Assembly: GCA_017626405.1 (NCBI GenBank)
Contig: JAGAIS010000001.1
Coordinates: forward strand, 422,885-486,884
Direction: 5' to 3'
Source: Bacilli bacterium
GTDB lineage: Bacteria > Bacillota_I > Bacilli_A > RF39 > UBA660
Length of the DNA: 64,000 nt
In this document: piece by piece, positions 56,819-64,000 of the stretch
Numbering within the stretch: position 1 is the stretch's first letter
Layout of the letters: each line of letters opens with the position of its first letter
The notes under the pieces: model-generated
What the model saw: the letters and a program-made list of their open reading frames with translations, nothing else
Databases searched by the model: none
Told to the model about the DNA's origin: nothing
Position numbers and translations under genes: made by a program

Positions 56819-57682
56819 ATGAAAAGAATAATTTATAGAATGTTAGCTTATGTACTAGATTTAGCATTTGTATCAGTTATATTGCTCGGAATAGGTTATA
56901 TTAATTTTGTTAATCCTGAAAGTGAAAAAATAAATTATACTTATCAGGAGTACTATAATATTAATAATTCATATACTGAATTAATGAAAAATATTGATGA
57001 TTATTTTAAAGATGGAAAATTAACTCAAGAAGAATATGAAGATATCGTATGTAAGTATCCTAATTTCTTTGATTGTTTTAATGATATTACTCTAAATGAA
57101 GATATTAAAAATAAAGAAATTGATGAGGTTAAAGAGGATTTAAATAAGAGAATAACTAAATTAAATAATGACTATGGATATAAAATAGAAAAACTAAATA
57201 TTAGAACTTCTGTTATAAGTATAGTTGTATATATTTTATATTTTGGTCTATTGCAATATATATTAAAGGGACAGACAATATTTAAAAAACTATTTAAATT
57301 GAGAGTAATTGATAATGAACATCCAAAGAAGAAAGTACCATTATGGAAATACATTATCAGAAGTATATTAGTATGCGAATTAATTATTTCCATTGTCGAT
57401 TTAATACTTTTAGTTACTTTAAATCAATCTAGTTATATTATTGGAAATGGATGGTTATCAAATATTAAATATGTCTACGAAATGGCATTCCTAGTTACAA
57501 TGATTATAAGAGATGATGCTAGAAGTATTCATGATTTACTATTAAATACGAGAGTTGTTAGATTTAATTTAGCAGGCAATATAATAGATGAAAAACTATT
57601 TAATGATGGTGACAGTGATTATGAGAGTGTTACTAATAAAAATAATAAGATTGTATCAAAGAACGCCAATAGAGATGCATAA
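56819..57682 (+). CDS. RDD-family membrane protein
   Basis: The 287-residue protein starts 'KRIIYRMLAYVLDLAFVSVI', with Arg and two Asp spaced as in RDD proteins. About four hydrophobic helices follow, interrupted by a long extracellular loop rich in Asp/Asn (about 40-125). A later 'GQTIFKKLFKLRVID' and 'RDDARSIHDLLLNTRVV' fit RDD C-terminal halves. The C-terminal 30 residues are polar and overlap the start of the yidD gene in another frame. Confidence 0.8.
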   Translation: MKRIIYRMLAYVLDLAFVSVILLGIGYINFVNPESEKINYTYQEYYNINNSYTELMKNIDDYFKDGKLTQEEYEDIVCKYPNFFDCFNDITLNEDIKNKEIDEVKEDLNKRITKLNNDYGYKIEKLNIRTSVISIVVYILYFGLLQYILKGQTIFKKLFKLRVIDNEHPKKKVPLWKYIIRSILVCELIISIVDLILLVTLNQSSYIIGNGWLSNIKYVYEMAFLVTMIIRDDARSIHDLLLNTRVVRFNLAGNIIDEKLFNDGDSDYESVTNKNNKIVSKNANRDA

Positions 57683-57839
57683 TAATTGTAAGTTTATTCC
57701 TAGTTGTTCAGAATATATGATTGGATGTTTAGAAAATTACGGGATATTAAAAGGGCTACCTAAAGGAATGTATAGAATACTTAGATGCAATCCTTTTAAT
57801 AGGGGTGGATATGATCCAGTAATAAAGAAAAATAAATAG
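57621..57839 (+). CDS. yidD: Membrane protein insertion efficiency factor YidD
   Basis: The 72-residue protein has 'LLIKIIRLYQRTP', 'NNCKFIPSCSEYMI' and 'RILRCNPFNRGGYDPV', the complete YidD signature with three conserved Cys. I start at the ATG at 57621 with GGTGA eight bases upstream; a longer frame from 57588 adds residues not seen in YidD proteins. It overlaps the 3' end of the RDD gene by 62 bases in a different frame. The normal partner, yidC, is not in this window. Confidence 0.9.
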   Translation: MRVLLIKIIRLYQRTPIEMHNNCKFIPSCSEYMIGCLENYGILKGLPKGMYRILRCNPFNRGGYDPVIKKNK

Positions 57840-57928: not shown

Positions 57929-57957
57929 TAGTGAGAATATATGAAAGGGTGAAAAAT

Positions 57958-58419
57958 ATGAATAATGTGGATAATTGTAACAATAATACTAATTCAATTG
58001 CTGATATTTTGAAAGTAATATTAATTCTTCAACAAAATGCTTGTCCTGAATCTTGCTTAGATTCATGTGATAGACCACTTCTTGGAGGAGGTCCTAATTG
58101 TCTTGTTTGCAATACTAGACCAGTAATGCTTTATAGTTGTTGTGGTAATGGAACTCCATGGAGTATGCCAACTTGTAAAGATTTAACTCTATCTTGTAGT
58201 AATCCTCAAACTTCAACGACAAACTGTGAATGTTCAAATGTATTTAGAGTTGAAAAACTTGATGGCAATGCAGCAACATTTAGAGTATTAGTTCCAAATC
58301 CTGAAGATTCTTGCTGCAATAGTCAACCTTACTTGAGTACTAATAGTTTCTTCACAATGGATTTAGGCTGCTTATGTGCTATAAGATGCTTAAATGATAC
58401 TTATGTAGACTGCGTTTAA
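57958..58419 (+). CDS. cotZ: Spore coat protein CotY/CotZ family
   Basis: The 153-residue Cys-rich protein has an N-terminal helical part ('SIADILKVILILQQNACPESC') and a C-terminal part 'FRVEKLDGNAATFRVLVP' and 'FFTMDLGCLCAIRCLND', which are the conserved stretches of the CotY/CotZ family (PF10612) of spore crust proteins. It contains about 17 Cys. AAAGGGTGA precedes the ATG at 57958. Together with cotE and cse60 it indicates sporulation capacity, now or in the past. Confidence 0.85.
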   Translation: MNNVDNCNNNTNSIADILKVILILQQNACPESCLDSCDRPLLGGGPNCLVCNTRPVMLYSCCGNGTPWSMPTCKDLTLSCSNPQTSTTNCECSNVFRVEKLDGNAATFRVLVPNPEDSCCNSQPYLSTNSFFTMDLGCLCAIRCLNDTYVDCV

Positions 58420-59183: not shown

Positions 59184-59208
59184 TGTATTATATATATAGG
59201 TGATAATT

Positions 59209-59727
59209 ATGAAATTATTTACTTATCTCTATATTTTTCTATTTGTAGTAGGAGTAATTACGTTAATAATCTATTATATATTGGATAATAAGCTTAAGAT
59301 GGAACAGGAAACTAAAGTATTAGATGCATTAATTCCCAAAGTTAAGAATTCCCTAATAGAATATTTAAATATATATTACAAATATATAAAAAAGAATAAG
59401 AAGTATTTAAGTGACGACTTCTTTAATAATATTACAGATAAGTATAATAGAATAAAGGAAAAAGAACTGATTGCCGATGTTATATTGGAATATCGAAGTC
59501 TTGAAGATGAATTAGAAAAATTTATTATTATCTTGGAAGATTCCAATAAATTAAAGAGTGAATCTTTAAGTGAAATAGATGAATATAAAAAAGACTTTGA
59601 AATAGTAAAAAAAGAATATAATGAAAATGTATTAATTATGAATAAATATAATAATATTTTTACTTCTTTCTTTATATCAAAGATTTATAAATTTAAAGAT
59701 TATCCTTATTTTATTTCCAAATATTAA
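59209..59727 (+). CDS. LemA-like membrane-anchored helical protein
   Basis: The 172-residue protein has one N-terminal membrane helix (about 4-24) and then a long, mostly helical ectodomain. The C-terminal 'YNENVLIMNKYNNIFTSFFISKIYKFKDYPYF' region (cut into its parts YNENV, YN.I and F.DYP.F) follows the LemA pattern of paired Tyr-Asn and a final 'F'. LemA proteins have N-out topology and unknown function. The ATG at 59209 follows AGGTGAT. A bidirectional terminator follows. Confidence 0.6.
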   Translation: MKLFTYLYIFLFVVGVITLIIYYILDNKLKMEQETKVLDALIPKVKNSLIEYLNIYYKYIKKNKKYLSDDFFNNITDKYNRIKEKELIADVILEYRSLEDELEKFIIILEDSNKLKSESLSEIDEYKKDFEIVKKEYNENVLIMNKYNNIFTSFFISKIYKFKDYPYFISKY

Positions 59728-59756
59728 AAAGAGTGTTATTTAACACTCTTTTCTAA
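59728..59756. terminator. Bidirectional terminator between the LemA-like gene and gatD
   Basis: AAAGAGTGTT-ATTT-AACACTCTTT, with A and T runs on the two sides, between convergent genes. Confidence 0.8.
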
Positions 59757-60446
59757 TTTAAACATTTTTAAGTATTCATTGTAAGCCTGATATTCAGGAG
59801 TATCAGTTATTTCCTTGTATGGATATTTTTTTTCATCAAAGAAATCTTTAATAATTTTATCCAATAGTTTAGGATTTCTAATTAGAAGGGGACCAATACT
59901 AGAAGTACCATAGAAGTTATTTATATGAAGTCCTTCATATTTAGATTTTTGGTTATCGGCATTACCACTTATTACTTCAAATAGATGATTCTCGTTTATA
60001 TCGTTAATTATTGATCTATTTTGAAATGCTATAATAGGTCCATCTACCAAATAGGTCTTATATACTTGTTCGCCGACAATTCGATTTCTAACTGTCTTGG
60101 ATTTAAAATTGAAGATATCTAATGCTTCGCGTCCATTAATTGATGTACCAAATAGACTTAGAGCATTACCGGTTGCTATAATAAATTTTTTCTTAATTAC
60201 TTTTTTTAACTCAGTTTTATATCTCAATATATCTGCGCGAGCTATTTCTAAAGAGTTCTCTGTACCACATCCAATATAGATGAAGTCGTATTTGTTGAAA
60301 TCAATCTTGCTTGATTTACTTACATTGTCGACCATTACCTTGGCACCTTGTCTCTTTAATGCTTCACTTAATGCTAAGACATTTCCGCGTTCTCCATAGA
60401 GGTTCATTAAATCATAATATAAATGAGCAATTCTAATTAGTTTCAT
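59736..60446 (-). CDS. gatD: GatD-like glutaminase subunit with lost catalytic residues
   Basis: The 236-residue protein is the GatD partner of MurT by order, length and fold: 'IAHLYYDLMNLYGERGNV' start, 'DFIYIGCGTEN', 'GLHINNFYGTS...GPLLIRNP'. In active GatD a Cys in 'CGGYQ' attacks glutamine and a His in 'HGP' completes the site. Here the first reads ATGNALSLFG (Thr92) and the second SSIGP (Ile184), so both catalytic residues are missing. Arg in KTVRNRIVG, which binds substrate, remains. The ATG at 60446 follows GGAGGAAAAAC. It overlaps murT by 14 bases. Confidence 0.85.
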   Translation of the reverse strand: MKLIRIAHLYYDLMNLYGERGNVLALSEALKRQGAKVMVDNVSKSSKIDFNKYDFIYIGCGTENSLEIARADILRYKTELKKVIKKKFIIATGNALSLFGTSINGREALDIFNFKSKTVRNRIVGEQVYKTYLVDGPIIAFQNRSIINDINENHLFEVISGNADNQKSKYEGLHINNFYGTSSIGPLLIRNPKLLDKIIKDFFDEKKYPYKEITDTPEYQAYNEYLKMFKLEKSVK

Positions 60447-61866
60447 GTTTTTCCTCCTCATTTAATAATTTTTTTAATAAACCAGTCATATCGAAACATA
60501 CCATTGTAAATATTTTACCTTTACTTTTTTTCTTTACGAGTGGTATTAAATGATTTAAATCATCAGTTAAAATTATTTTATCAGATTGAATATTAGCATA
60601 TTTTAATCTCACATATACATCGTATCTAAATCTTCCAATACAGAATATTTTATCGATACTTTTATCATTTAATATTTCGAAGTCTACATCATATAACCAT
60701 GAGATATCATTGAAACTGTATCTTCTCGATACATTGTCGAATCCGAGAATGACAGTTTTAGTTCCATTAGTCTTCTTTATATAATTTAGAGATTGCAAAT
60801 AGGAAAGTGCATTTTCATTTTTCGATTCGATCATTTCAACTTTTCTCTTACCTAAATAGTACTGTTTCATTCTCTTTGATTCCATAATATATTTATTTAA
60901 ATAATCTTGAATATTCTTAGTAGTTAATCCAATTTCACTGCAGATAGCAAATGTTGCTAGAGTATAGTAACAGCAAAAGAAGACATCTTTATTCAAGTGA
61001 ACTATAGATTTATTAATCGTCATAAAGTTTTTTTCTAAATTGATATCTTTAGCTTCATAATCGACATTGCCTCGTTTAAATTCACATTTAGGACATTTAT
61101 AGGAACCTATATGACCATAATGATAGTAATTGTATTTTAACTTAGTATGACATAGAGGACAGTAAGCTGCATCAAATGTATAACTCATTGGTATTTTATA
61201 AGAATCATTAGTCTTAGCTATACCATAAGTAATTACTTCTCCCTTATTCATATATTTTAGTCGATTGACGATTGGATCATCGGCATTGATAATGAGTTTA
61301 GTATTAGAATCAATAGAATCGGCAATTTTATTGAATATGATATCAGCATCTCCATTTCTCGCTGGTTGGTCGCGCGTAACATTGGTAATAACTAAGTGAG
61401 TAGGTTTTACTTTATTAAATATACTTTTAATGTAGGATTCATCTAATTCCAATAATAATACATCAGCATCAATTTTTTTAGAGAACGCTTTTGTATTATT
61501 TAGTATTAGGGTTGTTGCTGCATTGTATACGTTGGAACCATTTTTATTCCATACAACTTTATAGCCATTACCAGTTAGAACATGCGCTATTAGTGCAGTA
61601 GTTGAGCCTTTTCCTGAAGAACCAGTTACACCAATAACAATTTTAGGATAATGTAATCGATCTAGAATATCTTTATTATAGATCGTTGCATAATAACCGG
61701 GAGTAACTGTTGCATCTTCCTTAAATACTGGTTTTAATATATAACATCCAAAAGTAAAAACTTTGTTAATTATGATAGTAAATGTATCATTTTTTAGTAA
61801 AGGTTTACTTATTCTGCATAAAAATCTAACGATGCTAATAATTATATTATAAAGGATTTTTTTCAT
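60433..61866 (-). CDS. murT: Lipid II isoglutaminyl synthase, MurT subunit
   Basis: The 477-residue protein is a Mur-ligase-like enzyme with ATP-binding 'GVTGSSGKGSTTALIA', 'LELDESYIK', 'VTNVTRDQPARNGD' and a MurT-type zinc finger (CPLCHTKL ... CPKC, about residues 243-265). MurT activates the D-glutamate of lipid II and uses ammonia from GatD to amidate it. The motifs look intact. The ATG at 61866 follows GGGTGAT. The pair murT-gatD is in the normal order; the partner GatD, however, lacks its catalytic Cys and His. Confidence 0.92.
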   Translation of the reverse strand: MKKILYNIIISIVRFLCRISKPLLKNDTFTIIINKVFTFGCYILKPVFKEDATVTPGYYATIYNKDILDRLHYPKIVIGVTGSSGKGSTTALIAHVLTGNGYKVVWNKNGSNVYNAATTLILNNTKAFSKKIDADVLLLELDESYIKSIFNKVKPTHLVITNVTRDQPARNGDADIIFNKIADSIDSNTKLIINADDPIVNRLKYMNKGEVITYGIAKTNDSYKIPMSYTFDAAYCPLCHTKLKYNYYHYGHIGSYKCPKCEFKRGNVDYEAKDINLEKNFMTINKSIVHLNKDVFFCCYYTLATFAICSEIGLTTKNIQDYLNKYIMESKRMKQYYLGKRKVEMIESKNENALSYLQSLNYIKKTNGTKTVILGFDNVSRRYSFNDISWLYDVDFEILNDKSIDKIFCIGRFRYDVYVRLKYANIQSDKIILTDDLNHLIPLVKKKSKGKIFTMVCFDMTGLLKKLLNEEEKHETN

Positions 61867-61971
61867 GATAATCACCCAGTAAAATTATACCACAAATAGT
61901 TTATTTTTAATCATAAATTGACAAAGAATACTATAACTAGTAAAATATTTGCGATGGAAAGGTGTGAGAGT

Positions 61972-63468: not shown

Positions 63469-64000
63469 TTGAAGGTATTAGCTAGTATTGATATTGGTAG
63501 TGAAACTATAAAGATGGTTGTTGCCGAAATATTAGGTGATGAATTTAACTGTCTATGTGCTTTAGAAGAGGAATCTAGAGGAATAACTAATGGTTTAATT
63601 ATGGAACCTGACGAAACTGTTTATGCAATAAAGAAACTATTGAAGAGAGTTCAAGATGATCTTGGTTTTAAGATTACTAAGGTAATTGTCAATATTCCGG
63701 AGGAAGAGGCAAATTTTAAAATTGGCAATTCTAGTGTCAAGATCACCTCGGAAGATAAGGAAATAGTATCGACCGATATAATTCATGCTCTGCAAGCAAG
63801 TGTAAAGGGAAATATAGATAATCATTTTGATTTAGTGACAGTAATACCTATTATGTTTAAAGTTGATGATACAAAGACGAGATTTCCTAAGGGAATGAGA
63901 GGAGATTCACTTTCAGTTAAATCTGTCGTCGTAAGTGCTCCAAAAAAAGACATCTATTTAGTTGCTAAAATTATGGAAAAGTGCGGACTTGAAGTAATCG
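63469..64000 (+). CDS. ftsA: Cell division protein FtsA, N-terminal part (runs off the window)
   Basis: The frame starts with TTG at 63469 after AGGTGATGA and stays open to the last base. It begins 'LASIDIGSETIKMVVAEI', the actin-fold phosphate-1 motif of FtsA. The SHS2-like region follows, with 'ESRGITNGLI', 'VNIPEEEANF' and 'DLVTVIPIMF'. FtsA tethers FtsZ to the membrane at the division site. The 177 codons present cover less than half of the protein (usually about 420 residues); ftsZ would be expected just outside the window. Confidence 0.9.
   Translation, partial: MKVLASIDIGSETIKMVVAEILGDEFNCLCALEEESRGITNGLIMEPDETVYAIKKLLKRVQDDLGFKITKVIVNIPEEEANFKIGNSSVKITSEDKEIVSTDIIHALQASVKGNIDNHFDLVTVIPIMFKVDDTKTRFPKGMRGDSLSVKSVVVSAPKKDIYLVAKIMEKCGLEVI

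Follow-up and report, generated by a model that had tools for sequence, protein, structure and literature searches.

A GatD homologue without glutaminase residues is conserved beside MurT across a clade of Bacilli

We show that a GatD homologue without glutaminase residues is conserved in that state across a whole clade of the class Bacilli, where it nearly always lies beside MurT. It is carried by gut bacteria that are uncultured and make up a large group. In folds and operon the pair matches MurT/GatD, but the catalytic Cys and His are absent and the C-domain signature of MurT is different; read from the sequences, a changed reaction is likely but unproven. The textbook MurT/GatD reaction is probably no longer performed by this pair. 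We assign a probability of about 0.4 to the reading that GatD serves as a structural subunit and that MurT couples its acceptor to an amine bearing a carboxylate.

Identification of the pair

The window, by which we mean the whole stretch of 64,000 nucleotides analyzed here, encodes both proteins on its minus strand. The gene murT is directly upstream of gatD, and the two overlap by 14 bases:

59736..60446, minus strand: GatD homologue without the glutaminase Cys and His, 236 aa; an alternative in-frame ATG at 60461 gives 241 aa.
60433..61866, minus strand: MurT homologue, 477 aa from ATG; a GTG start at 61875 is also allowed.

The gatD frame had been described beforehand from the letters alone; it is open at these coordinates and contains both of the motifs quoted for it, ATGNALSLFG and SSIGP.

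The pair resembles the known lipid II isoglutaminyl synthases MurT/GatD of S. aureus, S. pneumoniae, S. pyogenes, and M. tuberculosis in being encoded by two adjacent genes and in having the same folds. The GatD homologue matches S. aureus GatD (6gs2) at E 3.8e-22 and the NCBIfam model NF045636 at E 1.7e-25 with 89.8 bits; the curated score is 400 bits, a cut-off reached in 0/296 genomes of the class, those with canonical GatD included. Its predicted model (pLDDT 93.8) superposes on 6gs2_A with Z 27.6 and an rmsd of 2.7 over 233 aligned residues, and groups with GatD by fold, the best non-GatD structure entry reaching only Z 18.7. The MurT homologue matches S. aureus MurT at E 4.1e-52 and the families Mur_ligase_M (PF08245, 1.9e-13) and MurT_C (PF08353, 3.2e-21). 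Its predicted model (pLDDT 90.0) superposes on S. pyogenes MurT (9sqj_AAA) with Z 35.3 and an rmsd of 3.1 over 390 aligned residues. Further likeness lies in the zinc ribbon, the P-loop Lys, the acceptor Asn, the Mg acids, and the GatD-facing gate, all of which the pair shares with canonical MurT/GatD. The pair differs in lacking the glutaminase Cys and His and the middle Gly of the oxyanion stretch, and in three MurT motifs described below.

Loss of the glutaminase site

The catalytic residues of GatD are replaced at both positions, while the glutamine-capturing Arg has an equivalent:

60165..60173, minus strand: GatD T92-G93-N94, the former nucleophile elbow, with Gly at the position of Cys94 (S. 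aureus) or Cys107 (S. pneumoniae).
59895..59897, minus strand: GatD Ile184, at the position of the catalytic His (H189 in S. aureus, H206 in S. pneumoniae).
60081..60083, minus strand: GatD Arg122, corresponding to the Arg that captures glutamine (R128 in S. aureus, R142 in S. pneumoniae).

The core of the preliminary description, a GatD homologue without catalytic Cys and His beside MurT, is thus confirmed, and it extends to 151/151 clade members, which lack both residues. Its Ile at the His position is Ile184, in the motif SSIGP. Its Thr at the Cys position was one residue off: in an ungapped alignment of 159 sequences the Cys column falls on Gly93, with Thr92 just before it, where canonical GatDs have Ile or Val. 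The predicted model agrees with this assignment: a strand covers 88-93 and a helix 94-99, so that the elbow lies at 93/94.

Of the 159 distinct GatDs, 8 have Cys in the Cys column and the other 151 have Gly; a His in the His column is confined to those 8. The 151 GatDs with Gly, referred to here as dead, have a conserved site pattern of their own, with Thr before the Cys column in 150/151 and Asn after it in 141/151. The canonical Gln near the elbow has become Glu or Asp in 113/151, the triad Asp32 is Glu in 139/151, and the middle Gly of the oxyanion stretch is replaced in nearly all. Other elements persist: the glutamine-capturing Arg (Arg142 of S. pneumoniae) is retained in 132/151 and the Tyr plug in 145/151. 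The roles of both elements in S. pneumoniae have been described (PMC6085368, excerpt).

A Cys and a His supplied from elsewhere in the chain had been named as grounds for withdrawing the original claim. No such residues were found over all alignment columns, and a displaced catalytic Cys or His is rejected: the best Cys column among the 151 dead GatDs reaches 15%, and their sole well-conserved His column, His8 (83%), is near the N-terminus. No earlier report of a GatD without the catalytic Cys was found in the titles and abstract openings returned by a literature search, which does not prove absence.

Distribution, phylogeny and selection

The loss of the glutaminase site is clade-wide. It had been suggested that GatD be compared across RF39-like genomes to see if the loss is shared, and this comparison gave Gly in 151/159 distinct loci, obtained from 186 loci by removing near-identical GatDs. 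A match is present in 24/60 relatives, in 42/296 genomes at the class level, and in 86/241 genomes of the order; seven of the last were set aside because their matches were partial and of low significance (E 5.8e-9 to 1.9e-5) and, judging by size, probably flavodoxin-like, which leaves 79/241. Among the loci listed for those 79 genomes, Cys and His are intact in only three genomes (G030, G070, and G211). We also kept 80 of 304 named public-genome loci; all 80 are of the dead type and have a MurT relative, in a sample gathered by a pattern favoring the dead clade. Outside the window's family, Cys and His are retained in all 25 canonical loci used, including those of the 159-GatD alignment. We therefore reject both a loss confined to the window's species and a loss common to all relatives, as both residues persist in three loci from the window's own family and in the canonical loci from other families.

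Four loci outside the window's family are exceptions in lacking Cys and His. Two of them, L228 and L229, group inside the dead clade. The other two, L230 and L231 of family f17, represent a second kind of dead GatD, with Glu for Cys (AIEQGYKYLG) and Arg for His (RGP); the MurT at these two loci lacks the gate Asp and keeps the canonical motif length.

In a tree of 174 pairs, all dead GatDs fall in one clade (0.963 for GatD, 0.644 for MurT, and 0.915 for the concatenation). Three loci of the window's family with intact Cys and His (L019, L148, and L154) group with canonical loci of another family, and these canonical pairs were possibly acquired by transfer. A single loss is thus the simplest history.

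The dead GatD is maintained together with MurT. MurT adjoins GatD in 181/186 loci; the five without it are L016 and L132, where the contig starts, L160 and L184, which are short contig pieces, and L024, where none occurs in the locus. Omega (NG86) for GatD is 0.037-0.34 among the 20 listed of 30 unsaturated pairs, indicating strong purifying selection, and 0.026-0.19 for MurT among the 20 listed of 46 unsaturated pairs, again indicating purifying selection. Open frames at the loci, together with omega values far below 1, lead us to reject a pseudogene. GatD as a structural partner, one of the four options first offered for this pair, is supported by this selection, by the adjacency of MurT, and by the conserved interface residues Gly21, Tyr17, and Pro186; the set of options as a whole is only partly supported.

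Changes in MurT

The MurT partner keeps its catalytic residues and differs from canonical MurT at specific motifs:

61603..61623, minus strand: MurT P-loop G82-S-S-G-K-G-S88; canonical GTNGKTT, with Thr60 replaced by Gly.
61084..61161, minus strand: MurT zinc-ribbon cysteines C236-x2-C239 and C258-x2-C261.
60802..60828, minus strand: MurT E347-S-K-N-E-N-A-L-S355, aligned gapless on MurD D-S-K-x-T-N-x-x-S; absent from canonical MurT.
60718..60729, minus strand: MurT S380-R-R-Y383, specific to the dead clade; Arg381 aligns on the Arg read as the MurD Lys348 position and on the MurC Arg380 position.
60706..60708, minus strand: MurT Asp387, the GatD-facing gate, equivalent of S. aureus Asp349 and S. 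pneumoniae Asp355, kept.

MurT had been described as having intact ATP and zinc motifs. This stands for K86, E140, D142, E143, and the cysteines C236, C239, C258, and C261, but not for the P-loop, which reads GSSGKGST with Gly at the canonical Thr60. A GKGS P-loop occurs in FolC. In the C-domain, the canonical motifs KNP[TA]G and ND..DG are replaced by SKNENALS and DNVSRRY; the form shared with relatives is SKNENxxS and SRRY.

We compared 146 dead-clade and 24 canonical MurT sequences, each longer than 300 aa. The ATP, acceptor, and Mg residues are almost invariant in the dead clade (K86 in 146/146; N112 and each of E140, D142, and E143 in 145), as are those of the loop and gate (D166 in 145, R170 in 144, D387 in 137, and D393 in 145 of 146). 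An Arg at 381 or 382 occurs in 138/146 dead-clade sequences versus 1/24 canonical ones. The motif K-x-x-N/T-x-x-S/T is present in 141/146, and its S/T in 0/24 canonical sequences. Glu351 is found in 142/146, and an acid (Glu or Asp) at 347 in just 81/146. Lys349 and Asp387 delimit a stretch of 39 residues in 138/146 dead-clade sequences, compared with 34-36 in canonical MurT.

The dead clade contains departures from this pattern. The Arg at 381/382 is missing in 8/146 dead-clade MurTs and also in L229, outside them; second copies in G034, G187, and G169 are among the MurTs without it. These three genomes carry two MurT/GatD pairs, and the copies L025, L167, and L180 lack SRRY and have KGLN or KGQN in MurT. 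At L053, a dead-clade MurT with a broken C-domain motif (KLIELEDSIS) lies beside a dead GatD.

The new C-domain motifs align with amino acid positions of other Mur ligases. In full-length hhalign comparisons with MurD of related genomes (probability 97.97), E347-S-K-x-x-N-x-x-S355 falls on D-S-K-x-T-N-x-x-S and Arg381 on the Arg of GGLDRG; with MurC (probability 95.73), Ser380-Arg381 falls on a loop Ser-Arg. These profiles hold two MurD sequences and one MurC sequence, with identity checked for one of the two MurD proteins and for the MurC, and the alignments are remote and may be off by one residue. A comparison of the MurT C-domain alone with MurD and MurE gave no usable alignment, and the full-length MurE alignment did not clearly place the SRRY loop. 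In MurD, Lys348 and Thr321 hydrogen-bond a carboxyl group of glutamate-like ligands (PMC3527612, excerpt), and glutamate recognition in MurD/MurD2 is set by Lys348/Arg358 (PMC8788868, excerpt). In MurC, the incoming amino acid is bound by His376, Arg377, and Arg380 (PMC3060825, excerpt). By our own reading of the motifs, MurD Lys348 and MurC Arg380 would correspond to the Arg aligned with MurT Arg381. The likeness to MurD/MurC consists of a D/E-S-K-x-x-N-x-x-S loop, as in MurD, and of an Arg that profile alignment tentatively places at the amino acid carboxylate site. Unlike these ligases, the window's MurT has no match to the UDP-binding N-terminal domain (PF01225) at E 0.1, has a zinc ribbon and a GatD partner, and is a MurT in overall sequence.

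The nucleophile of the pair

Changes in the MurT C-domain at MurD/MurC amino acid positions place a changed reaction first among the options originally listed for the pair, where it had been one of several; the substrates proposed below come from sequence. With SRRY and E/D-S-K-x-E-N-x-x-S at the positions of the incoming amino acid in MurC and MurD, the probable reaction of the pair is addition of an amino acid or of another carboxylate-bearing amine. GatD would almost certainly be unable to hydrolyze glutamine and would survive as a structural partner required by MurT. MurT would still activate a carboxylate with ATP, most plausibly the alpha-carboxyl of D-Glu in lipid II, and the nucleophile may be an amino acid, a peptide, or another carboxylate-bearing amine, no longer ammonia from GatD. 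The glutaminase site would then have lost its use and disappeared a single time, at the root of the clade. In some walls D-Glu carries glycine or diamine substituents.

Some observations run against this reading, among them the remoteness of the MurD/MurC alignment, the MurTs without the Arg, the canonical motif length at L230 and L231, and the acid at 347 in just 81/146. The retained glutamine-capturing Arg, Tyr plug, and negative gate of MurT suit ammonia entry at least equally well, and the association between GatD loss and MurT change amounts to one evolutionary event plus side branches. The new MurT Arg could contact the acceptor instead. Nor is this Arg easily put down to an acceptor with different diaminopimelate: the genome G030, whose locus L019 has intact Cys and His, combines canonical MurT motifs with a MurE carrying DNPR, the motif that marks diaminopimelate in MurE.

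Gut ammonia is high, and it is quite possible, if somewhat less probable than amine addition, that a dead structural GatD accompanies a MurT that amidates D-Glu in lipid II with free NH3/NH4+ from the ammonia-rich gut. The negative gate and the Tyr plug fit this, and so does the S. aureus GatD-C94G mutant, which has the same Gly as the window's GatD and which lost glutamine use while keeping NH3-dependent activity at pH 8.5 (PMC3266927, excerpt). The same excerpt reports S. aureus MurT alone to be inactive. Human CPS1 offers a natural precedent, having Ser for the catalytic Cys and using external ammonia (PMC4655335, excerpt); our GatD model matches its fold (5dot_A, Z 14.0, rmsd 4.1, 194 aligned). 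As here, a class I glutaminase domain is retained in CPS1 as a dead module (PMC4655335, excerpt), but CPS1 is another synthase with a fused domain and a Cys-to-Ser change, whereas GatD is a separate subunit with Cys to Gly and His to Ile or Leu. Free ammonia, however, leaves unexplained both the new MurT Arg pair (138/146 versus 1/24) and the new motif (141/146 versus 0/24). The conserved motif of the dead GatD pocket (Thr 150/151, Asn 141/151) also argues against it, as does the finding that S. aureus MurT/GatD used no ammonia at pH 7.5 (PMC3266927, excerpt).

Glutamine could still be the donor if another cellular glutaminase supplied ammonia to MurT/GatD, an option raised in the preliminary description. 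The retained MurT interface and gate would suit such a supply. Its class I version fares poorly in the window's genome (88.7% complete), where searches for PF00117 and PF07685 gave no match, against both families in 14/14 control genomes, and we regard the option as improbable.

Reduced Mur pathway and gene neighborhood

The window's genus has few of the other Mur enzymes. PF08245 matches just one protein of the window's genome, MurT. Across the nine genomes of the genus (G000-G008; for example, loci L107-L112 and L245-L248), searches with PF08245 and PF01225 found MurC and MurD in 0/9, MurE in 2/9, and MurF in 1/9; G005 has one more PF08245 match, outside these counts. MurB (PF02873) is found in 0/9 versus 8/8 of the other family genomes searched, and at L245 and L248 it is missing from between divIB and murG. 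MurG-type matches and transpeptidases are each present in 9/9, MurA was found in G000, and a family search confirmed MraY in G005. For the order RF39, absent pathway steps and scavenging of muropeptides have been predicted (PMC10868615, excerpt).

This setting bears on a salvage role, in which the pair would attach a preformed stem peptide to lipid-carrier muramic acid, as Mpl does on UDP-MurNAc. With such a ligase the window's genus could do without MurB-MurF, MurT being the sole Mur ligase found in G000; the missing UDP-binding N-domain match is compatible with it, and S. aureus MurT acts on a lipid-linked substrate. The pair, however, is also present in genomes with more Mur ligases, and no UDP-MurNAc would be expected without MurB, which makes salvage very doubtful. 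More broadly, the lineage may have reverted from an amidotransferase to a Mur-type ligase: having regained an amino-acid-binding nucleophile site and shed the glutaminase, it would now attach an amino acid or salvaged peptide to a lipid-linked muropeptide, with dead GatD as an obligate scaffold. We hold this to be unlikely, though well ahead of salvage in the strict sense.

Many of the 80 named loci have murT-gatD beside ftsA/ftsZ-like genes or beside QueH-, DivIB-, MurB-, or MurG-like genes, with cluster names assigned by eye; elsewhere, family searches confirmed MurG and MurB. The window itself has an FtsA-domain gene starting at 63469, followed by an FtsZ-like gene. Such neighbors, ftsA/ftsZ in some loci and divIB/murG in others, would agree with a MurT/GatD that has no catalytic role in the wall and acts as a scaffold or regulator near FtsA/FtsZ; conservation of the MurT ATP, Mg, and acceptor residues in 145-146/146 speaks against this, and it is the least probable of the explanations considered.

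Other genes of the neighborhood are as follows. A gene at 59200-59727 has a sub-threshold LemA match (6.8e-5), and in several members of the genus gatD is followed by one of similar size (cluster 28). At 57931-58419 lies a Cys-rich protein similar to spore coat protein Z (PF10612, 6.2e-14), and a family of this similarity recurs near murT-gatD in 12/80 loci (cluster 12). A YidD-type protein (PF01809, 7.6e-24) at 57588-57839 overlaps the end of a gene for an RDD-family membrane protein. In another genome of the genus, an open frame reported as 24,374 aa (G006:C2:72668-73096) is a giant gene or an artifact of Ns.

Significance

MurT/GatD is commonly treated as a glutamine-dependent amidotransferase and as a drug target. 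Annotation would label the proteins described here GatD and infer amidated walls; with the glutaminase lost across a whole clade and the loss under selection, that inference no longer holds. The dead GatD also provides a natural equivalent of the C94G mutant, ready for use in tests with free ammonia. If the donor has changed, the pair would exemplify a natural reversal from amidotransferase to amino acid ligase; it would also be a candidate for the enzyme that places substituents on the alpha-carboxyl of D-Glu. For a genus that has MurG and penicillin-binding proteins but, by family search, no MurB, MurC, or MurD, the source of lipid II becomes a question. Should the reversion to a Mur-type ligase hold true, the pair would be the last such ligase in most genomes of this genus, and an unrecognized wall chemistry may depend on it.
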